21,563 nucleotides of DNA, from positions 1 through 21,563 of IMG/VR virus record IMGVR_UViG_3300015360_000221; one strand, 5' to 3'. A model generated the notes under the pieces. It was not told the origin of the DNA. It saw only the letters and a list, made by a program, of their open reading frames with translations, and searched no databases. How positions within the stretch are numbered: position 1 is the first letter of the stretch; each line of letters opens with the position of its first letter. Origin of the DNA: a virus. Below are positions 1 to 21,563 of this stretch, one piece after another. The translations under genes and the position numbers were made by a program.

Positions 1-1031
1 AACGAAATAGGACTAAGTTCAGGTGCTGGACCAAAGAATATAATACTTGGAATTGGAGGATCAACTATAATGATCGACGGAATGCTAATTGGCCCAATCG
101 GACCAATGTCCAAGCATGGGAAAACAATTTGAGGTAACGTCAAAAGTGTTGATGGAGCTTCAACGTCTGGAATGCCAATATCTGGAAAAGGAGGAATTTC
201 AGGAATTGGTATTTCAAAAGGAGTGTTTAATTCTTCTGATGGCGGTTCTTCCGGGTTTTGTCTTTGTATTGGGCTTTGTACTATTTGGCAAGTATCATTT
301 TCTACAGTCACAATTGGATCGATGTTTGTTCCCGGAGGAAAAACATGAGTGCCAGATTGATCTGTTGTCGTAAAAGTTCCGTCGCCAAAATCTATTCTAA
401 ATCTTGAGAAATTTCCATTTATGATTAAATTAAAAAAAGTGACAGTGCCTTCGCAATTGCTGCTTGATTCTGTGACTATTCTAAATTCCAGCACAATGTC
501 AGGACATGCCGCATCATCTAAACAAGTAGATTCATCTTCCAATGCACCAAGGGTACAAGTTAGCGTTTCTTCACCTATGTCACATACGCCAGTGGATGTG
601 ATCCTTGTTACGGTTGCTCCTGTAATATCGGTACAAATTTCTCCAATGAATTTTTCCGTTCTGTAAATAGATTCAACGATTTGATTGTGATGTTCTGCTA
701 TTATAAATCCACGAACATAAACTCCTGCTTTGTTTGACTTTGTTTGTGTTCCGCCTATATTTCTTGCACATCTTTTTAATTTATAAATCTTTCCATTAGA
801 GTTTTTATCAACTTCGTCGTAATAAAATAATTCTCCAGATATATTGGCGAATCCATTTTCGCTCCATTGTTCAGCAGCATCTGCTGAAACTGGTCTGATT
901 TCAATTTCTTCTGACCAAGGAGAATTGTCTGAAGACAACACAGCCTCGGAAGTATTGAAAACCAAGAATAGAGTTCTGTTCGAATCTAATCCTAGAGGAT
1001 ACGCTGGTTCTGGTGGGAATGCTACTGCCAT
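1..1031 (-). CDS. PKD-like tail-associated protein with Ile/Pro-rich C-terminus, partial (C-terminus outside window)
   Basis: The minus-strand frame starting with ATG at 1031 stays open to the window edge (343 codons seen). Residues 1-130 match the N-terminal module of the next two upstream genes: a YP..LD start, an E/LFYYDE segment near 67-73 and the signature IAEHHNQIVESI at 111-122. Residues about 190-250 look like a degenerate PKD/Ig-like domain, with FRIDFGDGTF at 211-220. From about residue 261 the chain becomes unusually rich in Pro and Ile (for example IPIPEIPPFPDIGIP), with no recognised fold. There are nine cysteines. No clear Shine-Dalgarno precedes the ATG; the start is chosen because the module shared with its paralogs begins there. 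The role is inferred as an external tail, fibre or decoration protein, from PKD-like content and position. The product name is uncertain. Confidence 0.7.
   Translation of the reverse strand, partial: MAVAFPPEPAYPLGLDSNRTLFLVFNTSEAVLSSDNSPWSEEIEIRPVSADAAEQWSENGFANISGELFYYDEVDKNSNGKIYKLKRCARNIGGTQTKSNKAGVYVRGFIIAEHHNQIVESIYRTEKFIGEICTDITGATVTRITSTGVCDIGEETLTCTLGALEDESTCLDDAACPDIVLEFRIVTESSSNCEGTVTFFNLIINGNFSRFRIDFGDGTFTTTDQSGTHVFPPGTNIDPIVTVENDTCQIVQSPIQRQNPEEPPSEELNTPFEIPIPEIPPFPDIGIPDVEAPSTLLTLPQIVFPCLDIGPIGPISIPSIIIVDPPIPSIIFFGPAPELSPIS
870..888. repeat. 8-bp inverted repeat with 3-base loop
   Basis: TTCAGCAG (870-877), loop CAT, CTGCTGAA (881-888). It lies inside the coding sequence of the leftmost PKD-like gene. 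Confidence 0.8.
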
Positions 1032-1087
1032 TTGTATTATTTATACAGGGTGCTGCGACTTTCTGCCTTTATGAAGAATTGTACGTT

Positions 1088-3397
1088 TCAATATATGCCC
1101 GTAATCCATTGTTCGCCAGATGGTCTAATTCCTAAGTTTGAAAAAGTTAAATCTTGTCCGTTGAATTTAATGAAAGCACTCGTGCTGTAATCGAATGATA
1201 AATAAGCGTTTTTATCATGATCCGAAGTGACTTTCAAAGTGTTTTCATTAGAATCAAACGATTCCACCGTTGTGTCTTGCACCGATCTAAATGCAATAGT
1301 GCTTGATCCGCCTGTTTCCCAAGTGCCAGTTGTGTCGTTAAAGGCGGCTATGCTTCCAGAGTTATTGAAAAAGAATACGCCATTATCTAAATCAACCAAT
1401 TCTCCTTCAACCTTTGTGCTTCCGGGCATGTCTGGCATTTTCTTTAAACTAATGAAAGGATCAGATGTTATGCCGTCTGTTTTATAAAAACTTTTAATCC
1501 TAAAGAACGACCCAACGCCATCGTTTCTTAGTATATATCCAGTGTTGTCTTTCCACGCAGTTCTGTATACTGCAAACCTTCCTTCGTCAGGTTCGCCACT
1601 AGTATATGACGACGTAACATGTTCCATTAACTCATCGGCTCCATTCGTATAATTTGAAATATTAAGTGTATTGTTTGTAGCGGTAAGAGTTGGAGCATAA
1701 TTTAATGTTGTCCGAACTTGATAAGAATTATTAGTATTTGGAGTTTCTGTTGGTTCGGGACCAAATAAGAAGTATGTTTTGTCTCCAGAGTTTAAAGCGG
1801 CCCAATTCCAAGGACGAGTAATAGTTAAACTAGGCTCAGGGAAAAAAGTATCGCTAAATCCTTCGTATTCAACTATCTTTATGGTTTGATCCGCAAGCGG
1901 CGATCCGCCGCTTGCCCAAAACATTAAAGCAGTGCCTTTGTTTCCAGAATTTGTAGTTGTCCTTGGAGCAAAAGATGTGTTTTTGTTAAATTCTTTTTTT
2001 GCTCGTTCTTCTTCCCCTGTTCCAGTTAAAAACGCACTACTTCTTGAAACTGTTTTCGTTTGTGTAGCTGTTTTAAATGTTTCGCTAATTAGCCCAAATT
2101 CATGTCCTATAACATCGGTGGAATTTGTAAACGTAAACAACCAAAGACTTCTATCTTCTATTATGTCTATTGAGTTTTCGTATGTTGTTATTCTGTAAGA
2201 ATTATACTGCGTATCAACTCTTAACTTTAAATCATACACACCACCAATGCTATAAGATGCTTTAGTTGATGAAAGGCTGGAATGTGTTAAATCGTCTCCA
2301 AGCGACCAAGTGTATTCTGTGATAGGGTCGATTGGAGAACCGCTTCCATTTAATTTTTCACCACCATTTGATCTAGTTGAGGAATGGTTACCTTCAGGCA
2401 CTTCAATGTTTATGATTGCGTTTGTTTTCGATCTTATTGTCGGCGGGATTGCAAATGGTCCACCGGGGTTAGTTGCCAACCTATCAAAAGACGGAGCATC
2501 GTCTCCTGCGGTTGCTAATTGACTAACGGTTGGAATGAAATCTATTACGGCTTCTTGAGGAGCTTCCACTCTTGCATTAATTAGTTGTTTGAATTGAACT
2601 ACATCTTCTCCGCAACCATTGCTTACCGTTAATTTAACGTCATATATTCCGGGGCAAGTATATGTTTTGGTTACAGTTCCGCCGTCTAAATCTTCTACTA
2701 TTACTCCGACTTGATCTGGAGGAACAACGCTTGTTACAGATATGTTAGCTCCCGGAGATATTATTGAACATGCTGACATTGTGCATGACACTGCCGACAA
2801 GCAAGACTGATCTCCAAAGTCCCAAATAAATGTTTTTGGATTACTTCCCAATCTAAAGCTTTGGTCTTCAAACGTAACAGTCAAAGGAATCAACCCAACT
2901 GTTTTGTTAACAGTAAACCATGCTCTAGGAGTTAGAATTAGTTTTTTTAGAAAATTTATTCTTCCAACTATTGTGTTGCCCAAAGGAGTGGAATCTACAG
3001 TGCCTTTTATTCCCACGAATTCTTGTATGGCAATAATAGCATCTTTAATATTATTGTGATGAGCAGCCATCACATTTTGAGTGATGTTTGTAATGAATCT
3101 TCTTTTGGAAACATCTGTGAAATTTGGCAGCAATTCCAAGCCATTAAATGTTGTGGCTGTTTTAGAAGAATAGAAGAAACTTATGGCACGATCATCTATA
3201 TCGCTGCATTGTTCGGTTAATGTGATTAGCCCAGAATCTGGAAATTTTGCCATAGCAGCAGCATCTCCTTGCACTGCTACAGAACTATCTCCGGGAGTAT
3301 AATCTTCGGACAATTGAACTCTTAACGAATCATGAGTTAGGTACAAATTGGTATCATCATCAAATGATTGAGGATAATTACTAGATGTTGGTATCAT
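1088..3397 (-). CDS. PKD-domain structural protein with kelch/propeller-like C-terminus (probable host-contact protein)
   Basis: This is a 769-residue protein. Residues 1-130 carry the module shared with both neighbours, including AAHHNNIKDAI at 111-121. A first PKD-like domain spans about 157-275: WDFGD at 192-196, then a Cys-containing insertion (Cys199, 205, 210), then CPGIYDVKLTVSNGCG at 248-263. A second spans about 281-414, with WSLGDD at 364-369 and GGVYDLKLRV at 385-394. The remaining 350 residues are beta-rich and Asn/Thr-rich. The stretch GVFFFNNSGSIAAFNDTTG and the ending SGEQWITGIY recall kelch-like propeller domains of phage structural proteins; this is recollection, not a search. 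The ATG at 3397 has the Shine-Dalgarno AGGAG (3402-3406), which overlaps the stop codon of the upstream gene. Probable job: surface binding at the tail or baseplate periphery. Confidence 0.75.
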   Translation of the reverse strand: MIPTSSNYPQSFDDDTNLYLTHDSLRVQLSEDYTPGDSSVAVQGDAAAMAKFPDSGLITLTEQCSDIDDRAISFFYSSKTATTFNGLELLPNFTDVSKRRFITNITQNVMAAHHNNIKDAIIAIQEFVGIKGTVDSTPLGNTIVGRINFLKKLILTPRAWFTVNKTVGLIPLTVTFEDQSFRLGSNPKTFIWDFGDQSCLSAVSCTMSACSIISPGANISVTSVVPPDQVGVIVEDLDGGTVTKTYTCPGIYDVKLTVSNGCGEDVVQFKQLINARVEAPQEAVIDFIPTVSQLATAGDDAPSFDRLATNPGGPFAIPPTIRSKTNAIINIEVPEGNHSSTRSNGGEKLNGSGSPIDPITEYTWSLGDDLTHSSLSSTKASYSIGGVYDLKLRVDTQYNSYRITTYENSIDIIEDRSLWLFTFTNSTDVIGHEFGLISETFKTATQTKTVSRSSAFLTGTGEEERAKKEFNKNTSFAPRTTTNSGNKGTALMFWASGGSPLADQTIKIVEYEGFSDTFFPEPSLTITRPWNWAALNSGDKTYFLFGPEPTETPNTNNSYQVRTTLNYAPTLTATNNTLNISNYTNGADELMEHVTSSYTSGEPDEGRFAVYRTAWKDNTGYILRNDGVGSFFRIKSFYKTDGITSDPFISLKKMPDMPGSTKVEGELVDLDNGVFFFNNSGSIAAFNDTTGTWETGGSSTIAFRSVQDTTVESFDSNENTLKVTSDHDKNAYLSFDYSTSAFIKFNGQDLTFSNLGIRPSGEQWITGIY
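1893..1915. repeat. 10-bp GC-rich inverted repeat with 3-base loop
   Basis: GCAAGCGGCG (1893-1902), loop ATC, CGCCGCTTGC (1906-1915). It sits inside the 769-residue PKD gene and is far more GC-rich than its surroundings. No U-tract follows on either strand. Confidence 0.85.
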
Positions 3398-3404
3398 TTT
3401 TCTC

Positions 3405-4436
3405 CTACAGGACGATGATTGTATCTTTTAAAAACACTCTTCTTAGTTGTTGTGTTGAAAGCACTAATAGCAATGAAGGTTCATATTCTCCGGGACTATC
3501 ATACGTATGAGTGACAGAATGTATATCTGGATCAGTTATGCTTTCTGTTTGTCCGTCATCAAAAATCCAAAATCGTTGTACTATTTCTCCATCTGATTGA
3601 TCTACAAATTCGAATTCTTGTGGGGACGTGCTCAAATTAGAAGCTGTTTCCACCGAGTAATTTGGCAAATTAGAATCAGATGGTGCTACGTAAAAAAATT
3701 GTATAGTGTTATCTTCCGACACTTCGATGTAGTTGTTTTTTGTAACCACCCCTTGAGCACCATTAGATGTAATTATGCTTAGTTTTACAGTATATATTCC
3801 TTCTTGTTGGTAAGTGTGAAAGGGACTTTTCAATATAGAAGTTGTCCCATCCCCAAAATCCCAAAAATATCTTACAACATCTCCTCCTGAAAAATTTTGA
3901 AATCTTACTGATAATGGTGGCGAACCCTTTCTTGGGAATGATCGGAAAAGAGGTTTTGGAGACAAAAATTTATTTTCAAGAGTTTTTAATCTTCCATTTA
4001 GAGAATCGGCATTTGGGTTTGTCTCTAGTCCGACATAATTCTCAATATTTATGATTGCATCTTTAACGGCATTGTGGTGTTCTGCCATTACTGCGTTTGA
4101 TACATATGATCCAGCGTCCCAAGGATGTTGCACAGACCCTGCAAACGCCCTAATTAACTCACTAAAGGTTGTGTTAGTCCTTGAATCATAATATATTAGT
4201 TCTGAATTTCCTGCTTCTCCTGCTGGTGGTCCGATTCTCAACAAACCTTTGCTTGGAAAAATGCTAGCATCATCTACAATTATTTTTTTTCCATTAAACC
4301 CAATGCTCTGCTTTAGTTGTGTTTGAGCATTGTTTTTAGCTTCGTACAATATGTCTTTATCGTCAATTGCGTCTGGATACACTGACAAATCGCCAGATAC
4401 ATATCCATCGTCAAGACTTGATACTCTGTCAACCAC
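3405..4436 (-). CDS. Tandem PKD-domain structural protein (343 aa)
   Basis: It starts with GTG at 4436, supported by AAGGAG at 4442-4447 with a 5-base spacer; that Shine-Dalgarno lies inside the last codons of the upstream coiled-coil gene. Residues 45-137 form a module common in phage minor structural proteins: KIIVDDASIFPSKGLLRIG, an ELIYYD strand, then AEHHNAVKDAIINIENYVG at 118-136. A canonical PKD domain follows at about 163-240 (FWDFGDGT at 191-198, HTYQQEGIYTVKLSI at 207-221). A second, more diverged one sits at about 246-343 (FWIFDDGQT at 289-297, HTYDSPGEY at 310-318). The protein ends right after the second PKD, so it lacks the long C-terminal extension of its downstream paralog. 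PKD and Ig-like folds are known on virion surfaces; binding to a host glycan or protein is inference. Confidence 0.77.
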   Translation of the reverse strand: MVDRVSSLDDGYVSGDLSVYPDAIDDKDILYEAKNNAQTQLKQSIGFNGKKIIVDDASIFPSKGLLRIGPPAGEAGNSELIYYDSRTNTTFSELIRAFAGSVQHPWDAGSYVSNAVMAEHHNAVKDAIINIENYVGLETNPNADSLNGRLKTLENKFLSPKPLFRSFPRKGSPPLSVRFQNFSGGDVVRYFWDFGDGTTSILKSPFHTYQQEGIYTVKLSIITSNGAQGVVTKNNYIEVSEDNTIQFFYVAPSDSNLPNYSVETASNLSTSPQEFEFVDQSDGEIVQRFWIFDDGQTESITDPDIHSVTHTYDSPGEYEPSLLLVLSTQQLRRVFLKDTIIVL

Positions 4437-4438
4437 TG

Positions 4439-5086
4439 CTACTCCTTACATATTGTTTTGGGGGAATCTAACTTATTCTGTCGATCAAAAGAGTCGTTTA
4501 ATATATTGATGGTTTCTTTTTTAATTGGAGCGTCATCGCTCAAAGATAAAATAGCCTTCACTAATTCAATATCTAGTGGTTGTCTGAGCAACATTCTCAT
4601 TTCCAACTCACTTCTTAATTTTTGCTCCCAATATTCAGTTTGGGCTTTTATATCGTCAAATTGCTTTATTTTTTCTTTCTTTTCTAGGGATTGATAAGCT
4701 TCATAGAAAAAATTAGCTTCTTCCTTTGCGAATTTTAGTTTTTTACACATGCTATTTTCAGAGCGATCTATTCCATCTATTTTTCGTTTGATTTGTCTTG
4801 TTTTTATTTCAATCTCAGCTTGGAAATTATTGTTTTCGATGGATTGTCTTAATTTTTCCATCTCTATAATCATCAACAACTTGCGGTCTTCTATGTCTTC
4901 TAATTCTAAATTGATAGAATCCATTGTTTCTTTTCGTGACTGCAACTCTCTTAAGCATCTCCACAATTTGGCTTGAATTGTTGGTTCTTTGCCAATTACA
5001 AAATATTTAAGCTGAAAAAAACTATGACGATCAACTATTTCATTTTTTAAAAGTTCTTCAATTTTTTCGTTGTATTCGCTTGACAT
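4439..5086 (-). CDS. Coiled-coil protein of unknown function
   Basis: This is a 215-residue, highly charged protein, mostly predicted helix by eye, with heptad-like Leu/Ile spacing from about 50 to 165 and no signal peptide or membrane segment. The C-terminal third contains a conserved-looking block, YWEQKLRSELEMRMLL at about 152-167, followed by QPLDIELVKAILSLSDDAPI. The ATG at 5086 has a strong Shine-Dalgarno (AAGGAG, 5092-5097, 5-base spacer). The gene is first after the divergent plus-strand gene and is followed after two bases by the PKD gene. The position suggests an assembly or structural accessory role (for example a fibre chaperone), but I do not recognise the family and the function is left open. 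Confidence 0.62.
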   Translation of the reverse strand: MSSEYNEKIEELLKNEIVDRHSFFQLKYFVIGKEPTIQAKLWRCLRELQSRKETMDSINLELEDIEDRKLLMIIEMEKLRQSIENNNFQAEIEIKTRQIKRKIDGIDRSENSMCKKLKFAKEEANFFYEAYQSLEKKEKIKQFDDIKAQTEYWEQKLRSELEMRMLLRQPLDIELVKAILSLSDDAPIKKETINILNDSFDRQNKLDSPKTICKE

Positions 5087-5133: not shown

Positions 5134-5646
5134 ATGTACTTAAAAAATACTAGATGTTATCTTTCTGGCGCAATCGAACATTGTGAAAATAAAACTAATT
5201 GGCGATTAGAGCCAAAAGTAATTTTGCATGAGCAATTTGGCGTTCAGGTCTTTGATCCATTTGACGACCCGAAACAACAATGGGTGCCAACATTGGAAAA
5301 AGCAAGGCTAGAACAAAATTATGACGAATTGTCAAAGGTTGCTCGTAATTTCGTTCGAAAAGACTTATGCTTGGTTGATCGTTGCGATTTTTTAATTGCT
5401 CACGTCCCTTACAAAGTACCAACTACAGGTACTGTTCATGAAATAATTAATAGTAACAATGCTAAAAAACCTACATTGCTTGTGTGTCCGCAAGGCAAAG
5501 AGTTTATTTCATCATGGTATTATGGGTTTATTCCACACAAGTTCATGTTTTCAAGCTGGGAAGAATTGTACAAATATCTTAATGAAGTAAATGTTGGACT
5601 TCATAAAAACGAAGACAAATGGTCTTTTGTTTACGAGTTGATATAA
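5134..5646 (+). CDS. Nucleoside 2-deoxyribosyltransferase-like protein
   Basis: This is the only plus-strand gene (170 aa). It has the layout of the nucleoside 2-deoxyribosyltransferase-like family: an N-terminal strand with YLSGAIE (9-15) followed by W23-R24, the segment VFDPFDDP (39-46), an Asp-containing stretch RKDLCLVDRCDFLIAHV (75-91), and GTVHEI (99-104), whose Glu103 is in the place of the family's catalytic Glu. Enzymes of this fold move deoxyribose between bases or hydrolyse the N-glycosidic bond; phage members may serve nucleotide salvage or modified-base metabolism. The substrate cannot be told. It has its own promoter, and its last 16 bases overlap the 3' end of the convergent 145-residue gene. 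Strand, promoter and enzymatic nature all set it apart from the surrounding structural operon. Confidence 0.75.
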   Translation: MYLKNTRCYLSGAIEHCENKTNWRLEPKVILHEQFGVQVFDPFDDPKQQWVPTLEKARLEQNYDELSKVARNFVRKDLCLVDRCDFLIAHVPYKVPTTGTVHEIINSNNAKKPTLLVCPQGKEFISSWYYGFIPHKFMFSSWEELYKYLNEVNVGLHKNEDKWSFVYELI

Positions 5647-6068
5647 TGATACACGTCGTAATATGTAAATCTACATTTCAACGTATATGATATTGGCACA
5701 CTCATTACCTTATACAATGGGTTGGATAAGGTAATGTCATATTCTTTTAAAGACAATCCGTCACAATCCCATTTTTCTGTGATTATATTTGTAAATTTAG
5801 AAGAATCATCGCTCCACAAAAAAATAGTTCCGTTTTTTACGAACCGCATACTGTTTTTAAGAGTTTCGCAACTATTTTTCGAAGGTTTGGTTATTGATAT
5901 TTCAATACAATCACTTGTATCTGGAATAGCTGTTATTTGGATGAACATTTCAGGAACTATTATGTCACATTTGTAGTTCTCGCCAACAAATGACCACATT
6001 ACTCTTTTAGTTTTTTTAGACATAATATCTGACATTATGAAATTACGTTTTTTTGCCAAGGTTTTCAT
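5631..6068 (-). CDS. Hypothetical protein (145 aa)
   Basis: This is an unrecognised protein with a Lys-rich N-terminus (about 1-22) and then a mixed, probably beta-rich body with four cysteines. It has no signal peptide or membrane helix. Its ATG (6066-6068) shares one base with the stop of the upstream glycosyltransferase-like gene (TGATG), so translation is likely coupled and the full-length start is preferred over the internal Met12 and Met16. Its 3' end overlaps the convergent plus-strand gene by 16 bases and contains the 11-bp inverted repeat at 5703-5736. No function is proposed. Confidence 0.6.
   Translation of the reverse strand: MKTLAKKRNFIMSDIMSKKTKRVMWSFVGENYKCDIIVPEMFIQITAIPDTSDCIEISITKPSKNSCETLKNSMRFVKNGTIFLWSDDSSKFTNIITEKWDCDGLSLKEYDITLSNPLYKVMSVPISYTLKCRFTYYDVYHYINS
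5703..5736. repeat. 11-bp perfect inverted repeat, 12-base loop
   Basis: CATTACCTTAT (5703-5713) and ATAAGGTAATG (5726-5736) are perfect reverse complements. The hairpin lies 57 bases past the stop of the plus-strand gene and inside the C-terminal codons of the 145-residue minus-strand gene. On the plus strand it is followed by TCATATTCTTTT, a poor U-tract, so a terminator for the plus-strand transcript is possible but weakly supported. Confidence 0.5.
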
Positions 6069-6673
6069 CAGCAGATTTTAGCTCCCAATATTGCCTTAAA
6101 TTTACACCCCTTATCTATGGCATCTATGGCCCAAATGATTTTTGATTCATCTAATGAATCGTATGACATGTTTCCAATATCAATAAATGTTTTTCTGTTG
6201 ATCGTCAGTCCATTTAAGGTGCATTGAGTAAAATCTGCATACAAGTTGACTGGACGACCCTGATGATTGTAGTCTATAACTATTGGGAAAAATATATCTT
6301 TTTCGTTTTCCATAAATTGAAAGAATTTTTCGTCTATGTTGTATGGAACAACTGAACCTTCGATAACAATTATGTTCCATTCTGGATTTCCATTTTGCAT
6401 ACCAGTATTTATAAGAGATGTATAAGTGCCTCCGCCTTTGAAAACATTGCATAATTTTTTAATTTCATCAATATCTTCTTGTGAAGAATCTTCAGAAGTT
6501 ACGCAAATAATATCTTTGTCACGAAATCTCGTGCGAATACTATTAACAGTTGATTTTAACCTTCCGATATTATGCTCTGGGGATATGATTATAAACCCAA
6601 AGCTTACATCGTAATTGTATGAATACATTTTTTTAACCTTGTTTGTTTCAACCCACAGAGGATTCGTCACCAT
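6068..6673 (-). CDS. Glycosyltransferase family 2-like (GT-A fold) protein, DxD motif absent
   Basis: The 201-residue protein resembles small GT-A proteins. It has an opening strand and helix, SFGFIIISPEHNIGRLKSTV (24-43), a GGGTYTSLINTGMQNG segment, then a strand ending IIVIEGSVVP where family members normally carry DxD. A C-terminal block (GLTINRKTFIDIGNM ... WAIDAIDKGCKF) matches the usual acceptor-side region. Without DxD, activity is doubtful; it may be degenerate or metal-independent. The ATG at 6673 has no Shine-Dalgarno. Met16 (ATG at 6626-6628) is preceded by AAGG and lies just before the first strand of the fold, so it may be the true start. It is followed by the 145-residue gene with a one-base overlap. 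Possible roles are virion or host-surface sugar modification; this is inference. Confidence 0.52.
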   Translation of the reverse strand: MVTNPLWVETNKVKKMYSYNYDVSFGFIIISPEHNIGRLKSTVNSIRTRFRDKDIICVTSEDSSQEDIDEIKKLCNVFKGGGTYTSLINTGMQNGNPEWNIIVIEGSVVPYNIDEKFFQFMENEKDIFFPIVIDYNHQGRPVNLYADFTQCTLNGLTINRKTFIDIGNMSYDSLDESKIIWAIDAIDKGCKFKAILGAKIC

Positions 6674-7514: not shown

Positions 7515-8012
7515 TTAACCTAGCATTTTCGTTATTTTGACAAAGTTATATAGAGCTTTTTCTGAGAAGGTTGCCCATTCTTCTTCTTCTGTTTTTTCTT
7601 TTCTGAATTTAGAATCCCACAAATAACCATAATTGCCCAATATTTCTTCGTCTTTTTCTATGTCTCTGGAAAAATGATAAATCAATCCTGTTGCTGCATT
7701 GCTTGAATTGATCCATTGCTTTTGAAAATTCATGTCTCTTATTTCGCAGTTGTGATTTTCTGATGCATGATTTACAATTCCTGCATAACCCATAGGCACA
7801 ATTAGAGTATTGTCGAATTTGCTCAAAAACTTATAAGGATTGGCATAACTGGTACATTCATCTGCTAATTGTCCAACTTCAACCTTAATACCTATTATTT
7901 CTAGGTAATCACCCTTAGATAGTCTTTTATTGGCAAATAGTCCATTTCCAGCCAATGTAATACTGGATTTTGTCATATAAAATCTATCATCTGGCAATTC
8001 TCTGATTATCAT
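7515..8012 (-). CDS. SET-domain protein, probable protein lysine methyltransferase
   Basis: This 165-residue protein is essentially a single SET domain. It shows the N-terminal SAM-site segment AGNGLFANKRLSKGDYLEIIG (21-41, with the G-x-G-L-F-A core), the NHASE motif (81-85) corresponding to the NHxC/NHS site, and RDIEKDEEILGNYG (116-129), matching R-x-I-x-x-G-E-E-L-x-x-x-Y-G with the catalytic-position Tyr128. No pre-SET or Cys-rich post-SET region is present. SET proteins methylate lysines using S-adenosylmethionine; the target here is unknown and could be a virion or host protein. Its ATG overlaps the stop of the upstream 90-residue gene in ATGA (8009-8012), so the two are probably translationally coupled. 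A SET enzyme inside a tail-gene operon is unusual. Confidence 0.83.
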   Translation of the reverse strand: MIIRELPDDRFYMTKSSITLAGNGLFANKRLSKGDYLEIIGIKVEVGQLADECTSYANPYKFLSKFDNTLIVPMGYAGIVNHASENHNCEIRDMNFQKQWINSSNAATGLIYHFSRDIEKDEEILGNYGYLWDSKFRKEKTEEEEWATFSEKALYNFVKITKMLG

Positions 8013-8281: not shown

Positions 8282-8730
8282 GTAATTTGCATACTTGACG
8301 TTTTATTTAAATCAGCAAATGTTGTCATGCTGTAAAGTTCATTATTGTTCATTTGAAGAGCCATTTCGCTTAAAGCAAGCCCATTGCCTTCACTGAAGGT
8401 GAGTACCGAAGTAAAAACAACCTGAGATGGAATTGCTGAATTAATTTGACTAACAACTACCTTTGATACTTTTGTCGTTCCAAACAATCCTGTTCTTTCA
8501 GAATTTACGGATTTAGGAACACCGCCACTTGTGCCATTGTCTCCAAACAACATGCGTACAATAAAGAAGTCAAAAGTATTGCCGATTTCATTGGCCAAGG
8601 AAGCGGCAAGCGCTTCTCTGCCTTTTCTAAGTACGGCGTTTTTTATATGGCGAATTTCTTTGTTTCCATCGTTATATTCAATGATGATTTCTACTTCGCC
8701 CTTAGCTTTAATTGAATCAGTTGTTTCCAT
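8254..8730 (-). CDS. Probable baseplate/tail-associated structural protein (158 aa)
   Basis: The open frame could begin at 8748, but the ATG at 8728-8730 is chosen because GAGGAG (8735-8740) sits four bases before it; this leaves a 14-base overlap with the upstream wedge gene. The protein begins with a strand-rich segment (VEIIIEYNDGNKEIRHIKNA), a helix (KGREALAASLANEIG), and ends with beta strands LALSEMALQMNNNELYSM and the closing ITWNWNLSFV. This pattern occurs in small phage proteins coded just after the baseplate wedge genes, near fibres. The exact role (fibre attachment or capping) is not known. Confidence 0.55.
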   Translation of the reverse strand: METTDSIKAKGEVEIIIEYNDGNKEIRHIKNAVLRKGREALAASLANEIGNTFDFFIVRMLFGDNGTSGGVPKSVNSERTGLFGTTKVSKVVVSQINSAIPSQVVFTSVLTFSEGNGLALSEMALQMNNNELYSMTTFADLNKTSSMQITWNWNLSFV

Positions 8731-11700
8731 CGTTCTCCTCGGCAGCATATTCTATAGAATATGTAATTGTTTCTTTTTGTGTTATGTAATCGACTATTTG
8801 GTTTTTATCTGGTGCATTCAACGAAGACAATGCGGACATCATAGACATTCCATTGTCCACACTTATTTCAAACACTTCGTTACCTCTTCGGTCTATAAAT
8901 TCAAATTCATGTCCGGGCATCGGAGGATAAATTCTTTCTTCAATGGTAACTATCGGATCATATCTCATTCCATAAGGAGGATCGATAGTTGTCCCTGAAT
9001 GCTTGGAATATTTCAAAATATCGTATTCTACGGCTGTACCTGTTGTTTCAAACTCTCCATCAGGACCAGCTAGAGTAATTGTTGTTCCGTCTATTTCAGC
9101 AATTGCGTAATATTTGAAAGTAGCAGCCGATCCAGATAGTCCCGCATAAACCAAGAAATTTTCTTTGAATAAATCATCCTCTAATATTAAATTCGGATCA
9201 ACAGGAGCATTTATTCCGTTTAAAATCCCCAATGTTGTTTCTTGGTTATTTGGGGATGTATCTAATGTAAGTCCTCTGTAATGTAGAAACCCCCTTCCAT
9301 TATTTGTTAATCTTTTGTATACAATGGTGGTTATTCCAGATACATCGCCACCATTCCATTCATCAATGTAAAACTTAAGAGTTTCACCAACAACAAACCC
9401 AGACACTTTGTATTGGGATGAACCGTATAATACAAAATTTCCAATTTCCATTATGCTTCTTATGTCATCTATATCACTAGCTAAAACGCTATTTCCTTTA
9501 ACGAGAACGCTTCCTCCAGAATAATCAACTAAACCTCTCCTCTTGACTGTCAAGCTTCCGATAACGCTTGATTCCACAGCAGTTGCACTGTCGTCACGTA
9601 TCGTATAGGTAACAGATGATGCAGAGGATGATGGCAAGGTGCCATCATCCTCTATTACCAAGCTTCCGTTAGGAAGTAATTGAATAAGAGGATAAGTGCT
9701 TCCATATGCAGGAATCGACACATCCCAAGCAGCCCCCGTATAATTAGGATCATTATCTACGTCCCATTGTGTTTTTACACCAATTTCATCAAAGTCTAAA
9801 TTTGCGTCTGAAATGGTAAAGTAATTATCTTTAGTAATTGACGTAGACGTTGTTTTTCTTATTCTTTCGTTTGATAATCTGAAGGTGAATTCGCTATGAT
9901 CTACTGGCTCGGTTGGGCTTCCTGACGCAATTACTGCAAACTTCTTATCAGTATTTGAAATTGTATATTCTCCTTGATTTGCAGATGGAGACAATATTTC
10001 CAAAAAAGTTAAAGAATCATCAGGTTCTACGCCTAATTGATCTAACGAAATAGTTGGAGCAAAAATAACGATTTCATCATTTGATATAACACCTGAAGCT
10101 CCAGAAACAGGAGTGGTTACATTTGCCAATGCACTTCTTGTGATTTGTTGATTAGTTTCCATAGATCGATTAAATATGGTTTGAGGAGGATCAACAACAG
10201 TCATTTCTTGCCCAGCTATGTAAACTAAAGCTGTTATGGTTTCGGTTGGGGATGGCATAAATTCATTCACGTTTCCGACTAGATTCATCGAATGAAGTTG
10301 AGCGTGAAATGGCTTGAACTCTCTGATTATTTGCGTAGCTTCAACAATTCTATCATCTGATAAAGTTTCTATTTCAATATCAATGTTGAACTTGCTGCTT
10401 TGACACTTGCCGCATTCATCGACAAATTGTCTGTCTATGTGACATGGATTGGCAGAATCTCTTTTGCTGCCATTGTATTCTTCCATGTTGTATATGTTTT
10501 CTGAATAAGGAAATTCGGTTCTTATTTTGCCAAAGATTACAGGGTCGGTAAAAGGATGTCTGTCTGGAATGATTGCATCAAACAGAACGTCATCTTCTTC
10601 AATTAACCGAACATTCCAATTTTTTAAAGGATAAGATTGATCTCTTTCATCTCTTTGATCCGACAAAGGCAAAGTTCTTATATAATCTTCTATTGTTTGT
10701 TCTGTTGGATTTAAAACTTCATTTACTTCATATAAAACTCTAATGCTATCGCCTGCATCTAAGATGATTGGATCAACAGATAGTTGATCCCCAACCCATG
10801 TCATTACAGTTACATCATCGACATTTACCAACGTAACGTAATCAGAAGTTAGCGTGGTCCAAGCATCGTCGTCAGGTCCTCTATAGTACAACTCGAAATT
10901 ATCGGTATCAACTGGAAGTATTGAAAGTTGGCTCAATTCAAACACAATATCAGTATTGCTTTCCACATCAAACAATTCTTGGTGAGTATGTGGCGATATC
11001 ACTTGCCACAGTCTGGTAAATTTATCTAATCTTATGCCTGCTTGACCTAATGCTTTTTGAAGACCGTTGAATGTTCCTTTTTGCTTAAAACAAGGAATGG
11101 CATTTTTTATTTGCCGTCTCCATAGAGTGGGATCGCCCGATCTCAGCTTTAGGTTGAACAAATTACCAAGTAACGGCAATAAAGATTCATGAGTTGCATT
11201 GGCGTCAATAAGGTCAACCATTTGGTTGGTCATGTCTTCTAAAAACGTAAACCCATCTGCCACGGAATTGTTTAAGCCACGAAGTGTTTGCGGAGTTAAA
11301 TCTCCATCACTCATCATCATTTTAAACATTTCAGGAAGATATCTTTCCTGTAATGTTTCATATTTTACTGGATTTGTAAAGTGAGTAGGTATGCTAGTTG
11401 TTAATTGCGTTGCCCCGCCCAAAAAGAAAAAAGAGTGTGCAGAATAGGAATTTCCAGCAGCAAAAGGCGTCCAAGTCCAGCATACAACATAATCGCCTTC
11501 TCTCATTCCTACTGGATTCCATTCAAGTTGAAAATTTCCATACAAAGGATTGCCTTCTTCGTCTTCTGTTGTTTGCGTCAACATGGCATTGGCTGTATCT
11601 GTTGACAACCACGCAGGAAAATCATCATTTCCAAATCGTGCTACTTGTTTGGCTTCATTGAAATGAAGCGTTTCAATTTTAGACGTTGCTTTTATTTGGT

Positions 11701-12010
11701 TTTCTAATTTTCCTACATCTGCTAGATTGGCAGGAGTAGGACTATTACATGCTGTTAGTTTGGCAATTTCTAGCTGTGACTGCAAATCTGGAAGAGGAGT
11801 GGTTCGTATTGTTTCAATTATATTTGGGCTTGAAAAGCTTCTTTCAATGTAAAATATTTTTACATTGTCTACTTTATAAGGATCAACTTGAAAGCAATCT
11901 GGTTCCTCATCTTCAATTGCCGTTCCGCTTAAAATAGCATTAGGCGTAAGTATATCAAACAGAATGATATCTGCTATGGTTGGGTTTTCAGATATTGTTT
12001 TTTCAGCCAC
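8717..12010 (-). CDS. Large baseplate wedge protein, tail protein I-like
   Basis: This 1097-residue protein starts with GTG at 12010, with AGAGG (12015-12019) four bases upstream overlapping the stop region of the J-like gene. Residues about 276-327 carry the hallmark of the phage tail protein I family: LLPLLGNLFNLKLRSGDP, then WRRQIKNAIPCFKQKGTFNG and an ALGQAGI helix. EFKPFHAQLHSMNL at 564-577 matches the closing part seen in the same group. A Cys/His cluster lies between (Cys523, His524, Cys533, Cys536). The remaining 500 residues are beta-rich and contain many Thr, Ser and Asp. The family member in P2 is under 200 residues, so this is a much expanded version, perhaps also doing the job of T4 gp7-like wedge arms. 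Direct position after the J-like gene supports the assignment. Confidence 0.77.
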   Translation of the reverse strand: MAEKTISENPTIADIILFDILTPNAILSGTAIEDEEPDCFQVDPYKVDNVKIFYIERSFSSPNIIETIRTTPLPDLQSQLEIAKLTACNSPTPANLADVGKLENQIKATSKIETLHFNEAKQVARFGNDDFPAWLSTDTANAMLTQTTEDEEGNPLYGNFQLEWNPVGMREGDYVVCWTWTPFAAGNSYSAHSFFFLGGATQLTTSIPTHFTNPVKYETLQERYLPEMFKMMMSDGDLTPQTLRGLNNSVADGFTFLEDMTNQMVDLIDANATHESLLPLLGNLFNLKLRSGDPTLWRRQIKNAIPCFKQKGTFNGLQKALGQAGIRLDKFTRLWQVISPHTHQELFDVESNTDIVFELSQLSILPVDTDNFELYYRGPDDDAWTTLTSDYVTLVNVDDVTVMTWVGDQLSVDPIILDAGDSIRVLYEVNEVLNPTEQTIEDYIRTLPLSDQRDERDQSYPLKNWNVRLIEEDDVLFDAIIPDRHPFTDPVIFGKIRTEFPYSENIYNMEEYNGSKRDSANPCHIDRQFVDECGKCQSSKFNIDIEIETLSDDRIVEATQIIREFKPFHAQLHSMNLVGNVNEFMPSPTETITALVYIAGQEMTVVDPPQTIFNRSMETNQQITRSALANVTTPVSGASGVISNDEIVIFAPTISLDQLGVEPDDSLTFLEILSPSANQGEYTISNTDKKFAVIASGSPTEPVDHSEFTFRLSNERIRKTTSTSITKDNYFTISDANLDFDEIGVKTQWDVDNDPNYTGAAWDVSIPAYGSTYPLIQLLPNGSLVIEDDGTLPSSSASSVTYTIRDDSATAVESSVIGSLTVKRRGLVDYSGGSVLVKGNSVLASDIDDIRSIMEIGNFVLYGSSQYKVSGFVVGETLKFYIDEWNGGDVSGITTIVYKRLTNNGRGFLHYRGLTLDTSPNNQETTLGILNGINAPVDPNLILEDDLFKENFLVYAGLSGSAATFKYYAIAEIDGTTITLAGPDGEFETTGTAVEYDILKYSKHSGTTIDPPYGMRYDPIVTIEERIYPPMPGHEFEFIDRRGNEVFEISVDNGMSMMSALSSLNAPDKNQIVDYITQKETITYSIEYAAEENDGNN
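8735..8740 (-). promoter_or_regulatory. Ribosome binding site deciding the start at 8730
   Basis: Minus-strand GAGGAG lies four bases before ATG 8728-8730. It would fall inside the coding sequence if the upstream in-frame ATG at 8748 were used, so it favours the shorter protein. Confidence 0.7.
9623..9653. repeat. 14-bp perfect inverted repeat with 3-base loop
   Basis: AGAGGATGATGGCA (9623-9636), loop AGG, TGCCATCATCCTCT (9640-9653). It sits in the C-terminal half of the tail protein I-like gene, coding EDDGTLPSSS on the minus strand. No U-tract follows, so it is not a standard terminator. Confidence 0.9.
11845..11867. repeat. 10-bp inverted repeat with 3-base loop
   Basis: CAATGTAAAA (11845-11854), loop TAT, TTTTACATTG (11858-11867). 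It lies near the 5' end of the tail protein I-like gene, about 145 bases after its start codon. Confidence 0.85.
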
Positions 12011-12018
12011 TAATCCTC

Positions 12019-13593
12019 TTATGTGTACATAAATGAAATGTTTATTTCATCTGGTCTAATTATTTCATAAAACTCAGTAGTCACAACATCGCCTGAGTTT
12101 TCTGGGTCGCTTGTTGTAAAAGTTACATCTACTCCTTGTATTTCTTTAATATCAGAGAGTGACTTGACTAATTCTGTATCTTTTAAAGTTTTTCCGTATT
12201 GCCAGTTATTTAACGAGAAAAATGCACTTATCTTTCTTGTAATGTTTTCTCTAAATTCTTGTTCGAATTTTCTATAAAACCTATCTATGCTAACATCTAT
12301 GTCAACATCTGTTTCTATAATTTCTCCATTTCTTATGCAAATATAATCAGTGAGCATTTTCTTATCAACTAGTTCATCATTTAATGCTACTTTTAATTCA
12401 TTGCTAGCAATTGCCAAATTGTTCGTATCATCTAACGCTAAAACATAAATGTCAATAATGTTTCCAGCACAACCGTGATTTCTTAAGACGGCATTAGATT
12501 TTCCTATTTTTCCTTGGAATGGAGTGGCAAATTGTTCTGCCAAGGTTTTATAATCTTCTCCTGTTACCGCTCTATTTTGTGTTCTGAGAAAAGCTGGTAA
12601 TTTTCTTCTTACGTCTTCAATTGTGTCGCCATCATATCCAAACTCACCTTTGGTGTAATTTCTAAAGTTCACAGGGATGTTTACAGAAAATCCCGGATTA
12701 GGGAATGCTCTTTGAGTGTCAACAAAGTCTGTTATGATGTTGCCAATGATGCCGCCGCCAACTCTATATGTAGCCTCAATTGATGAGCCTTGAGTGGGGA
12801 TTTTCCCCGCTCTGTTATTACCAAATATAATGAATGCATTATATTCTGAGTCAAATTCTACTCTATATTCGTTTCTTGGTTGGGAATCAGTGAAGAATTC
12901 TACCTGCTCCCATAAAAGACCCTCTACAGATACTCGAATAGAGTCAAACGTAACAGGCCCGCTTCTTAGTTGTAAAGTTTGAGATATTTCGCCATTGCCT
13001 ACAAATGTATCTGCAACGGTTCTTCCCTCCACTCCAACAATACTTTCTACAGATGTTTCTCCTGCTGGAATGATAATGTCTTGATCGAAAATAGGATTGT
13101 TGTTTGAATCTGATGGGAACAATTCAATCGTAATTAACGTACCTTGCGAGGCGACCTCAACAACTAGCGGAGTGCTAATTTGTAAATCGGTAGTTACAGG
13201 GTTGGTCATTGTTGCTTGCCACAAACTTCTTGCAGCAATTGGTGGTTGTGGTCTAAATCCAACCAACTTAGAAAGTCTAAAAGCATTTTCTGTTTCAGTT
13301 ACTGTATCAATAAAAAGTTCATTGACAATTTGATCCATCTTGAATGATAATGTGTCGGCTAAAAATGCCCAATTTTCTATCAACATTATCGCTATAGAAG
13401 ATTCTACAAGGTCGTTAAATGCATTGGGCATTTCAGTGCCTTGTGGTCCGAATCTTTCCAATAAAAAGCTTATTAACCTTGACTTCATGGAAAAGAAATC
13501 TTGGTTGGTATAGTTGATATTAACCACATTGGTATTTCTTATTAATCCCGATTGGTCATATGGTGACAAGTTTATTGGGCAATTATCTGCCAT
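12019..13593 (-). CDS. J: Baseplate wedge protein J (gp6-like)
   Basis: This 524-residue protein has the baseplate J/gp6 layout: an N-terminal helical part with ERFGPQGTEMPNAFNDLVES (48-67); a middle with VVEVASQGTLITIE, the segment EGRTVADTFVGNGEISQ and the strand pair FIIFGNNRAGKIPTQGS plus YRVGGGIIGNI; and a C-terminal part with RTQNRAVTGEDYKTLAEQF and a late ENITRKISAFFSLNNWQYGK helix. In contractile phages J-like proteins dimerise around the hub to form the inner wedge ring together with the gp25 and I/gp7 proteins, which flank it here. The ATG at 13593 has GGAGG (13599-13603), and only one base separates it from the gp25-like stop. Confidence 0.93.
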   Translation of the reverse strand: MADNCPINLSPYDQSGLIRNTNVVNINYTNQDFFSMKSRLISFLLERFGPQGTEMPNAFNDLVESSIAIMLIENWAFLADTLSFKMDQIVNELFIDTVTETENAFRLSKLVGFRPQPPIAARSLWQATMTNPVTTDLQISTPLVVEVASQGTLITIELFPSDSNNNPIFDQDIIIPAGETSVESIVGVEGRTVADTFVGNGEISQTLQLRSGPVTFDSIRVSVEGLLWEQVEFFTDSQPRNEYRVEFDSEYNAFIIFGNNRAGKIPTQGSSIEATYRVGGGIIGNIITDFVDTQRAFPNPGFSVNIPVNFRNYTKGEFGYDGDTIEDVRRKLPAFLRTQNRAVTGEDYKTLAEQFATPFQGKIGKSNAVLRNHGCAGNIIDIYVLALDDTNNLAIASNELKVALNDELVDKKMLTDYICIRNGEIIETDVDIDVSIDRFYRKFEQEFRENITRKISAFFSLNNWQYGKTLKDTELVKSLSDIKEIQGVDVTFTTSDPENSGDVVTTEFYEIIRPDEINISFMYT

Positions 13594-13594
13594 T

Positions 13595-14014
13595 TCATCC
13601 TCCGGCTAGTGGAACTTGTAAGACAAGGGCTTGTAAATCTGATATATTCTCTGGGTCGAAAAATTTAATTTTTATAGACAGTATATTTTCTTGGCTTTCT
13701 CTTGTGTCTGACGGATTCAGGTCATTTTCATCTATCATTCCTACATAAATATCTTCTATGACAACCCTTGGTTCCCATGTAGATATTGACTCTATAATCA
13801 TACGTTTTGCTTGTTCTGCAATTGTTTCGTCATTTGGTTCGAACAAAAGAGTTTTTAGTGCGGTTCCATAAGCGGGCAGCATTACTCTTTCTCCCGGATT
13901 TGTTAATAGCAATACAAGCAAATCAGACTTAATTGTATTTAAGCCCTTTTGTGTATGTATTAAACCACGAGGGTCTTTTACTATTGGATATGATGCTCCG
14001 AAAAAATCAGTCAT
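13595..14014 (-). CDS. W: Baseplate gp25/gpW-like protein (sheath initiator)
   Basis: A 139-residue member of the GPW/gp25 family, close to the usual length. The signature is plain: the helix LNTIKSDLLVLLLTNPGERV, with NPGERVMLPAYGTALKTLLF (39-58) followed by EPND, then an amphipathic helix (AEQAKRMIIESISTWEPRV) and the closing strands. In T4 and P2 this protein joins the inner baseplate to the first sheath ring and sets sheath polymerisation. The ATG directly abuts the stop of the spike gene; GGGGAG (14026-14031) lies 11 bases upstream, a little far, so translation may be partly coupled. Confidence 0.95.
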   Translation of the reverse strand: MTDFFGASYPIVKDPRGLIHTQKGLNTIKSDLLVLLLTNPGERVMLPAYGTALKTLLFEPNDETIAEQAKRMIIESISTWEPRVVIEDIYVGMIDENDLNPSDTRESQENILSIKIKFFDPENISDLQALVLQVPLAGG

Positions 14015-18456: not shown

Positions 18457-21400
18457 TTATATGCTATCGTTTGCCACTTGACGACTTGCATTGCTTTGGA
18501 AGTTGCCATATTGCCATGCACCATATGTCGGACTTGCAGTTGGTCTGTTGTTTTGAGTCATTGTGCTGGCGTGTTTTTGCGAGTCCGACATGCCGCTCAT
18601 TCCACTTGATGGAGTTAACAATTCGATAATTTTTTCATTGTCACTATGAATTTTAGCCAATAAAACAACTTGCTCATCAGCAGCCGCCGCAATAGCACTC
18701 ATTTCTTTCGTCATGTTGCCATCATTACCAATTCCTGCCGCCGTGCTTGCATATTGTTCCTTTACTCTGTCATAGGCATCTTTTATTGGCTTGCTTTCGG
18801 CTGTTACTGCGGATTGAGGCTTGCTTACTGAACCTCTTGTAGCAGAAGGAATTGCCATTCCTCCCATTTTTCCAGTTGAAATGAAATTCTCCATTGCAGA
18901 TTCTTCTGGCAACTTCATGCCATTTACCAATCCCTCTTTTGGGGTTATTTCAACTCTTTCGCCCTTGTGAACTTGCATGATCTGATCTTGTGAAGTAAGG
19001 AAGTTGCCGCCCTTTCTGAAAGAAGGAATTTTGTATTTACCCACATCATCTGGCATGTTTGCGTCCATGTATTTTTTTAGATCAGCAGTGCTATTAAAGT
19101 CTCTAGATTTTGCCCATTCTTTGAATTTTACTTGTGTTTCATTTGTGGCATGGTCACTGTTTACAGTTCTTAAATAGTTTCTTATTTCTGGCTGATTCAA
19201 CCTGCCTTTTTCAGTTGGTTTTATTGGCATGTTCTGAGAAACATCTGATGATCGAGAAACATCTAATGATTTAGATGATCCAGCATTGGCATCGGACTGA
19301 TCGTCATAAAATTTAATTTGAGCAGGATCAAAGTTTCCCTTTCCAGTTTTCTCCAGTTGTTTTTGAAGTGTTGCCTCACCTCCGACCATTTTTTCTGTAG
19401 CATCCACATGCGGCTGCGCCAATTCCAAACTTTTATCTGGAGAAACAGGGACAGCAGATGGAGACACGGCAGCACCAGCACTCTTATTGAGCAATTGCTT
19501 TCTGTTCGGCATACCAGTTTGTTTTCCTTCAAAATCTCCAAGTTTAGAATACAAATCAACTGCTTCACTACCCATAATGGTCTTCATGTTATCATTGGTT
19601 TTTTTAGATGCCGAATTAAAATCATCGATTATGGCGTCAAATGTAGCAAACATAGTATCAAATGACGATTTGCTATTGTCTCTAACGATAGACATATTTC
19701 TGTTTACATCGCCCTTAGACCTATTCGAAGCATAGTTTGCGTCTTTGCTTATTTTTGAAACGCCATTATTCCAAACCTTATCACTTAAAACTTTTTGGTT
19801 GCGTTCAAGTTTAGTTGCGTTGCCAGCAACAGCAGCTTCGGTAGATTTGGCATCTGGTCCATCTAGAAGATCACTCCATAGGTCCTTAATTCCAGACCAC
19901 ATTCTGCTGAATAATCCTGTGGTTGCGTTTTTTGTGTCTTTGCCCATTCCTTTCGATCCCGCTTCTTTTACGGCAGAACTTGCATTAATTTTTTCTGGAG
20001 ATACAGTTTTTGCTACTCTTGCTGTTCCGCCTTCTGTTCCAGCTTCTTTTCCTAATGTAAGTTGACTGACGAAGTTACTTATTCCCTCCATTCCTGCTTC
20101 TTTTCCTAATCCAGTTGTGAATGCTCCCATGTTAAGCATGGATGCTTCTGACATTGCAGACCCCATTGCTTTCATTGCCTTGACAAGCTCTAATATCAAT
20201 TCTGTTGTATTATTCAATCTTTCTTTGGCGTTTTCAAGTTCATCATTATCAGGCATCAATTCAATTGGAGACAATATGCCAGTTCGTATAAATTTAGCAA
20301 TGTTTTTGAATACTTCCGAAAAAATGTCTGCTTGTGACAGTATTTCTTGCATTTCGCTATCGCCAGTAGAAAACCATCCAGAAGGATTTGATAATTTAAA
20401 CAATTCGCTTGAAAGGTTTTTCATTAATTCTGGAATAGCTTTGATGATTCCTGTTATTGATGTCATCTTGGTTGATATATCGCCTAAATTTATTCCTGAA
20501 AAATTAGATGATATAGGTTCTATGATGCTCCATCTTAAAAATTCGGCTATAGTAAAGAAAGCATCTCTGAATTCACCGCTTTTCACCAATTCATTGATCG
20601 TGTCAATTTTAGCTTCTTTATACCAGAACAAACCACTTCTTTGAGTCAATGGCACCAATTCATTAACAAGCGATGATAATAAAGTAGGAACAGCTTTGAT
20701 AACTTCTATTATTGATGTAATCTTAGTTGGTATATCGCCTAAATCTATTCCTGAAAAATTAGATGATATAGGTTCTATAATGTCCCATCTTAAAAATTCG
20801 GCTACTGCAAAGAAGGCATCTCCAAATCCACCGCTTTTTGTCAACTCGCTAATCGTATCAATTTTAGCGTCTTTATACCAGAACAAACCACTTCTTTTAG
20901 TCAATGGCACCAATTCATTAACAAGCGATGACAATAAAGGAGGCACAGCTTTGATAACTTCTATTATTGATGTCATCTTAGTTGATATATCACCTAAATC
21001 TATTCCTGAAAAATTAGATGATATAGGTTCTATAATGCTCAATCTTAAAAATTCGGCTACAGCAATAAAAGCGTTTTTGAATTCACCGCTTTTTGTCAAC
21101 TCGCTAATCGTATCAATTTTAGCTTCTTTATACCAGAACAAACCACTTCTTTTAGTCAATGGCACCAATTCATTAGCAAGTGATGATAATAAAGGAGGCA
21201 CAGCTTTGATGATTTCTACTATTGATGTCATCTTAGTTGATATATCGCCTAAATCTATTCCAGAAAAATTAGATGATATAGGTTCTATAATGTCCCATCT
21301 TAAAAATTCGGCTACTGCAAAGAAGGCGTCTCCAAATTCACCACTTTTTGTCAACTCGCTAATCGTGTCAATTTTAGCTTCTTTATACCAGAACAAACCA

Positions 21401-21563
21401 CTTCTTTGAGTCAAAGGCACCAATTCATTAACAAGCGATGACAACAAAGGAGGTACAGCTTTTATTATTTCAGATAGTGATTTAAAATTTCCAGATATAT
21501 CATTTAAGTTAATTCCAGAAAAGTTATTTTGAATTGGTAAAATTATATCATTTTTAAGGAATT
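18457..21563 (-). CDS. Tail tape measure protein, partial (N-terminus outside window)
   Basis: The frame is open from the right edge of the window to the TAA at 18457, at least 1034 codons; the TTG at 21447 is a repeat-internal codon, not the start. It begins with four near-identical 85-residue repeats plus partial and degenerate units (see repeat entry), then a helical segment, an alanine/glycine-rich region with the amphipathic stretch GLFSRMWSGIKDLWSDLL, and a long polar, Ser/Asp/Lys-rich region. A C-terminal module GGNFLTSQDQIMQVHKGERV followed by EITP is the ending typical of tape measure and minor tail proteins. Tape measures set tail length and line the tube. Position directly upstream of the tube-cap and hub genes supports this. 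Confidence 0.87.
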   Translation of the reverse strand, partial: FLKNDIILPIQNNFSGINLNDISGNFKSLSEIIKAVPPLLSSLVNELVPLTQRSGLFWYKEAKIDTISELTKSGEFGDAFFAVAEFLRWDIIEPISSNFSGIDLGDISTKMTSIVEIIKAVPPLLSSLANELVPLTKRSGLFWYKEAKIDTISELTKSGEFKNAFIAVAEFLRLSIIEPISSNFSGIDLGDISTKMTSIIEVIKAVPPLLSSLVNELVPLTKRSGLFWYKDAKIDTISELTKSGGFGDAFFAVAEFLRWDIIEPISSNFSGIDLGDIPTKITSIIEVIKAVPTLLSSLVNELVPLTQRSGLFWYKEAKIDTINELVKSGEFRDAFFTIAEFLRWSIIEPISSNFSGINLGDISTKMTSITGIIKAIPELMKNLSSELFKLSNPSGWFSTGDSEMQEILSQADIFSEVFKNIAKFIRTGILSPIELMPDNDELENAKERLNNTTELILELVKAMKAMGSAMSEASMLNMGAFTTGLGKEAGMEGISNFVSQLTLGKEAGTEGGTARVAKTVSPEKINASSAVKEAGSKGMGKDTKNATTGLFSRMWSGIKDLWSDLLDGPDAKSTEAAVAGNATKLERNQKVLSDKVWNNGVSKISKDANYASNRSKGDVNRNMSIVRDNSKSSFDTMFATFDAIIDDFNSASKKTNDNMKTIMGSEAVDLYSKLGDFEGKQTGMPNRKQLLNKSAGAAVSPSAVPVSPDKSLELAQPHVDATEKMVGGEATLQKQLEKTGKGNFDPAQIKFYDDQSDANAGSSKSLDVSRSSDVSQNMPIKPTEKGRLNQPEIRNYLRTVNSDHATNETQVKFKEWAKSRDFNSTADLKKYMDANMPDDVGKYKIPSFRKGGNFLTSQDQIMQVHKGERVEITPKEGLVNGMKLPEESAMENFISTGKMGGMAIPSATRGSVSKPQSAVTAESKPIKDAYDRVKEQYASTAAGIGNDGNMTKEMSAIAAAADEQVVLLAKIHSDNEKIIELLTPSSGMSGMSDSQKHASTMTQNNRPTASPTYGAWQYGNFQSNASRQVANDSI
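20428..21563 (-). repeat. 255-bp (85-residue) tandem repeat inside the tape measure gene
   Basis: Units lie at 21193-21447, 20938-21192, 20683-20937 and 20428-20682, with a partial diverged unit at 21448-21563 and a degraded one beyond 20428 (about 20160-20427). The spacing of the shared CAATTCATTA block (20656, 20911, 21166, 21421) is exactly 255 each time. Each unit encodes a chain starting LLSSLVNEL, with GLFWYK, EFLR and EPISSNFSGI blocks and ending near IIKAVPP. The very high nucleotide identity between full units points to recent duplication or gene conversion. Confidence 0.95.

Follow-up and report, generated by a model that had tools for sequence, protein, structure and literature searches.

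The stretch of DNA analysed here (named "the window") represents a complete IMG/VR virus record of exactly 21,563 bases, which carries on its minus strand three consecutive genes, designated A, B and C, that an open reading frame check recovered at the coordinates assigned to them in an earlier interpretation of the letters alone (the sequence-only reading). Gene A (3405..4436), the first of the triad and a conserved one, encodes 343 amino acids (aa) comprising an N-terminal module (referred to as the "N-module") and two PKD domains. Gene B (1088..3397) encodes 769 aa, in which the N-module and two PKD domains are followed by a predicted Kelch-type beta-propeller. Gene C (3..1031) meets the end of the record, and the first 343 aa that are available, open at the contig edge, encompass the N-module, a PKD-like domain and the start of an Ile/Pro repeat array.

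The triad is preceded, also on the minus strand, by genes of a contractile-tail baseplate. Directly upstream of A is a conserved gene specifying a 215-aa protein (4439..5086; coiled-coil-like by eye), which was retrieved at 77 loci including the window. Further upstream are a tail-collar-like protein (at 8254, between the Tail_P2_I gene and the small genes), a Tail_P2_I-like baseplate protein of 1097 aa (8717..12010; Pfam PF09684, 7.2e-6, above the cut-off), a gp6/J-like baseplate wedge protein (12019..13593; phrog_219, 4e-27; TIGR02243, 1.5e-32, which is below the TIGR02243 cut-off), the baseplate wedge protein gp25/W (13595..14014; Pfam PF04965, 2.8e-17) and an injector OB-domain protein (at 14015). 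A gp53-like protein is listed between the latter and a protein that carries repeats and occupies the tape-measure position (18457-21561). In myophages, tail-fibre genes are found downstream of the baseplate genes W, J and I, being the gene order of phage P2. A, B and C are similarly encoded with baseplate genes, downstream of the gp25/W, gp6/J and Tail_P2_I homologs, and, as in the P2 arrangement, have an N-terminal part in common, with a distal part that varies in the case of C. The P2-type locus differs in specifying one fibre, whereas three paralogous proteins with different tips and PKD spacers are present here.

The operon contains several further features. In the gene in the tape-measure position, a unit of 255 bp (85 aa) occurs four times in tandem, with 90% matching, at 20432-21462. 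A SET-domain protein is encoded within the tail operon at 7515-8012 (Pfam PF00856, 2e-7, above the cut-off; 19 loci including the window), and a nucleoside 2-deoxyribosyltransferase-like gene is located on the opposite strand at 5134-5646 (2.5e-6, marginally below the cut-off; found at 38 loci including the window). The small protein encoded at 6068-6673, syntenic in 62 loci including the window, looks by eye like a GT2-type glycosyltransferase, with no family support in Pfam, PHROG or NCBIfam.

The N-module spans approximately 130 residues and consists of a beta domain followed by a helix that starts at the motif A(E/A)HHN. It is located at residues ~13-150 of A (3987..4400, ending in the AEHHN helix), ~1-147 of B (2957..3397, AAHHN helix) and ~1-134 of C (630..1031, AEHHN helix), all on the minus strand. 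The corresponding HHN motifs are AEHHNAVKDAIINIENYVG, AAHHNNIKDAIIAIQEFVG and AEHHNQIVESIYRTEKFIG, and the PKD-like cores that follow are WDFGDG (A), WDFGD (B) and IDFGDG (C); no other ORF of at least 70 aa in the window contains HHN. Pairwise blastp (one-sequence database, uncorrected E) gave 1e-20 for A-B, 5e-8 for B-C and 3e-7 for A-C, and in a shuffle control the N-modules scored z = 23 (A-B), 17 (B-C) and 12 (A-C), with none of 2000 shuffles near the observed score. Coordinates, motifs, cores, blastp and shuffles thereby agree with the sequence-only reading in its claim of three consecutive genes with a common HHN-bearing N-terminal module, and the profile-profile alignment that it had proposed points the same way: hhalign of the family N-module profiles returned 99.7% for A-B (3e-26), 99.3% for A-C (1e-20) and 98.6% for B-C (5e-16) over 115-124 columns, and 97.9%, 97.0% and 88.1%, respectively, when the HHN helix was left out. 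The similarity consequently extends beyond the helix, contrary to the outcome that the sequence-only reading had named as its refutation. In AlphaFold2 (AF2) models, the N-module of B has strands at residues 26-106 and then a helix at 111-128, and that of the C protein of a relative (L009) has strands at 28-122 and a helix at 127-154, so that the two resemble each other in overall predicted secondary structure, a series of short strands giving way to a long helix from near HHN. Among solved structures, the L009 module found its best phage match in a portal-tail chain of GP4 (8jov_1; Z 7.9, rmsd 4.7 over 99 residues), a similarity that does not go beyond a common arrangement.

It could be argued that the three modules have converged on a common combination of a beta domain and a helix rather than having been duplicated: the motif of the helix comprises few residues, faint matches to the beta part by itself exist in giant proteins of cyanophages, and a 318-aa protein of L083 has the whole module in one unrelated context. 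Convergence is nonetheless hardly credible in view of an in-register profile similarity across 115-124 columns, at E values no worse than 5e-16, among three neighbouring genes. Judged from these alignments, the N-module is truly duplicated, and A, B and C are paralogs that carry it N-terminally in each case.

Contrary to the sequence-only reading, the similarity is not restricted to the N-module; the module is indeed common to all three proteins, but the first PKD domains of A (3723..3920, minus strand; residues ~173-238, WDFGDG) and B are also homologous (hhalign 99.3%). Membership of the PKD family of Pfam, PF18911/PF00801, is clear for both proteins, A matching Pfam PKD_4 at 1.9e-24 (86 bits versus a cut-off of 27) and B at 2.4e-13 (50.4 bits versus 27). 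The architecture of A, namely the N-module followed by two PKD domains, is kept across the lineage in a family alignment of 57 rows, and of these 57 proteins 42 match PHROGs annotated as virion structural protein and 37 match PHROGs annotated as baseplate wedge subunit. Searches of PDB sequences with A and with B returned only PKD-type or weak matches, and none of A, B and C contains a recognised tail-fibre Pfam domain. In the A protein of one relative (L011:4477-5739), the two PKD domains are separated by an additional copy of the small beta element.

The AF2 model of B from the window has a mean pLDDT of 88.6, and its confidence is mostly above 90 at residues 414-769, corresponding to the C-terminal domain (1091..2158, minus strand). 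When compared with solved structures, this domain aligned to the Kelch domain of KLHL7 (3ii7; VIA-align Z 21.5, rmsd 3.2, 269 residues) and to KLHL20 (Foldseek E 2.4e-7), and it is accordingly predicted to be a propeller, which explains what the sequence-only reading had described as a 350-residue beta domain. Although the predicted fold resembles that of Kelch-repeat beta-propellers such as KLHL7, identity is approximately 12%, and no Pfam Kelch family matched B at E values up to 1; the domain is therefore referred to as having a Kelch-like fold and not as a Kelch member by sequence. The arrangement of N-module, two PKD domains and propeller is retained across the lineage (alignment of 56 rows).

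C is the variable member of the triad. Its PKD-like domain (297..494, minus strand; RIDFGDG core) scores 0.028 against Pfam PKD_4 (14.9 bits, under the cut-off of 27), and the equivalent region of the L009 model (residues 163-241) aligns with a PKD domain at Z 9.2 over 71 residues. The Pro/Ile-rich repeat region that follows (3..239, minus strand) is cut by the contig end, and what had been taken for an Ile/Pro-rich tail closing the protein proves in relatives to open a long repeat array, beyond which a conserved C-terminus is found. Complete copies of C range from 483 to 2946 aa across relatives, a range from which a 128-aa ORF in L078 was excluded because it looks interrupted. In most of them, repeats of ~10-12 residues with the consensus (I/V/L)-P-(S/T)-x-I-x-(V/I/L), here abbreviated "IPSxIxV", come after the PKD-like domain, the motif matching as many as 157 times (in L020), and such repeat-type proteins end in a conserved C-terminus, exemplified by MPEKPEVEMVYRGAPIEMKI...VPC. 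Between L012 and L031, identity amounts to 52% in the middle of C, 72% in its N-terminal part and 87% at its end, compared with 74% for B. In one sub-lineage, C has instead a distal part made of Pro/Thr-rich linkers that bear modules of RCC1, Kelch-like or Cys-rich type, being RCC1 repeats in L060 (E 8.6e-108), L072 (9e-26) and L055, Kelch-like repeats below the Pfam cut-off in L055, and modules that appear Cys-rich by eye in L065, L074, L075 and L077. A distal part that varies more than the anchor was thus found for C only, in contrast to A and B.

No relative of the IPSxIxV array was detected in Pfam, NCBIfam or PDB sequences, and a PDB sequence search with C as a whole returned nothing. AF2 modelling of a repeat-type C protein (L009) gave a mean pLDDT of 53 and values of ~50-60 in the repeats; the usable parts of this model are confined to the module and PKD-like domain. 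A viral Foldseek search with it yielded a single, uninformative match at E <0.001, and its LRR-like matches (YopM, rmsd 11.7) were discarded as an artefact of a low-confidence model. Two ORFs adjoining C in relatives were recorded by eye, one that resembles a trypsin-like protease and immediately follows a C gene of the propeller type (L072:19232-20052) and one resembling an HNH endonuclease, inserted between C and the MptE-like gene described below (L081:8718-9539).

Relatives were sought with the three N-modules, by which 79 IMG/VR loci were found in addition to LR756511.1, the unannotated record of an uncultured phage of 595 kb. The order A-B-C is present in 73 of the 79 loci and in LR756511; five of the remaining loci end after A or B, and the sixth (L080) contains one long C-like gene as the sole module copy of a 34-kb fragment. 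LR756511 specifies the same genes in the same order with three copies of the module, but differs at 33-46% protein identity (43% over 96% of the length for A, 33% over 99% for B, and a differing repeat region in C). The 642-kb huge phage LR756502 has no module copy. Two GTDB contigs, L082 (in a Neisseriaceae MAG) and L083 (in an Altiarchaeales MAG), were considered and dismissed as a clue to the host, given that they look like phage contigs in bins.

If the triad were a local adhesin array that is still expanding, with more copies left of position 1 as the sequence-only reading anticipated, copy number would be expected to vary and recent duplicates to be found. A fourth, C-like copy does lie directly beside C, following it, in two of ~80 loci, both among the 73 (L055:16375-17484 and L075:18463-20468). 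Yet exactly three module copies are present in all ten long records (131-595 kb, including LR756511; one A copy was reported in two pieces), and the gene after C in relatives is usually MptE-like and not another copy of the module. Furthermore, a tree of 99 modules (a quick tree, with support by SH-aLRT only) sorts them by gene position, with support of 99 for all B modules and 95 for C together with the fourth copies and L080 (both starred), and 88 for all A modules. A strictly monophyletic C that excludes the fourth copies was rejected (p 0.035), an expected outcome given that D and X nest within C. The tree thus indicates that the triplication is older than the diversification of the sampled lineage. 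The constant copy number and the sorting by position argue for an old, fixed triad, and a growing local cassette that continues past the left edge is very improbable. The paralogy of the three genes, their order, copy number and domain architectures, and the stability of A and B versus the variability of C, are established.

The surroundings of the triad are conserved as well. In LR756511 and dozens of IMG/VR loci the order is spike, gp25, gp6, Tail_P2_I, collar, a 269-aa protein, GT2-like (a reading of the sequence, with no family match), the 215-aa protein, A, B, C, MptE-like and a gene of ~97 aa. The MptE-like/DUF115 gene right after C is located outside the window (L003:15445-16308, with counterparts in 41 loci); the L003 protein falls below the family threshold (23.2 bits versus a cut-off of 34.6), and 8 of 23 members match at E <=0.01 (best 6e-7), scores that speak for distant similarity only. 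Its position next to C suggests that C may be modified. It is tentatively conceivable that repeat-type C constitutes a new class of phage fibre shaft, in which each of the IPSxIxV motifs (up to 157) would form one short beta-strand and a turn (a low-confidence prediction), length would be tuned by gain and loss of repeats, and Ser/Thr residues may be glycosylated by the adjoining MptE-like enzyme.

Among the closest known systems are the giant virion or baseplate proteins of Kyanoviridae cyanophages (phrog_2885, phrog_4406), in two of which the beta part of the N-module is situated near the N-terminus of a protein encoded right after gp6. These proteins differ in being single and ~3,900-4,300 aa in length, the match does not include the HHN helix, and no A-B-C triad is present in the two records searched. 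T4 Hoc also strings Ig-like domains on a conserved anchor, but is bound to the capsid through a C-terminal anchor (PMC10385173), whereas the module of A, B and C is N-terminal and their genes are in a tail operon. The "Moraphages", which have several core glycosyltransferases (PMC12619734), were considered as a possible lineage. The triad is undescribed in the literature searched on huge and jumbo phages, PKD, Kelch, repeats, tail fibres, MptE-like enzymes and the GP4 structure, of which few subscription papers formed part, and the accession LR756511, PKD and tandem repeats are all absent from the main text of Al-Shayeb 2020. PKD domains, propellers and fibres encoded after J and I are of known kinds; what is new is a fixed paralogous triad with a third member that varies in repeat length.

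Taken together, A, B and C probably represent an ancient, fixed set of three paralogous tail-fibre or adhesin proteins in a lineage of contractile-tailed, large-to-huge phages. Their location in the tail is supported by gene order and by the annotation of module relatives, and an anchor joined to an exposed part is the best reading of a duplicated module that is N-terminal in all three proteins, the genes of which belong to a baseplate/tail-fibre operon. From the sequence we infer that the N-module (beta domain and HHN helix) most likely docks onto the baseplate; the PKD domains that follow would act as spacers and the distal parts would be exposed at the surface, where they may bind receptors, in whatever oligomeric state the proteins might adopt. 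A would then form a short PKD-PKD arm, and the predicted propeller of B a constant candidate head with a plausible ligand-binding role. C would be the adaptable member, either through an IPSxIxV array of variable length with a conserved C-terminus or through linkers with exchanged modules. Of the earlier proposal of an anchor module bearing interchangeable heads, the anchor and exposed part are retained; the interchangeability applies to C alone, which swaps or resizes its distal part, while the architectures of A and B are fixed.

The C-terminus of repeat-type C, being conserved and not hypervariable, is less typical of a receptor-binding tip and counts against the adhesin reading. Together with the conserved architectures of A and B, and with module matches to PHROGs that are annotated as virion structural protein or baseplate wedge, it fits structural proteins at the periphery of the baseplate, similar to whiskers or a collar, in which the module would fill equivalent positions and the PKD domains, propeller and repeats would be scaffolds or spacers that have no receptor role. 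We consider this rather unlikely, because the exchange of domains in C (RCC1, Kelch-like, Cys-rich) and its extreme variation in length resemble host-contact proteins more than scaffolds.

The syntenic triad provides an annotation handle on what is likely the apparatus by which uncultured large phages contact their hosts, phages whose relatives are unannotated in the collections searched. Because the propeller of B, as a stable candidate head, can be told apart from the variable C, questions of host range may be aimed at one gene, and the IPSxIxV array of C may serve as a test case for the evolution of fibre length by repeat number.
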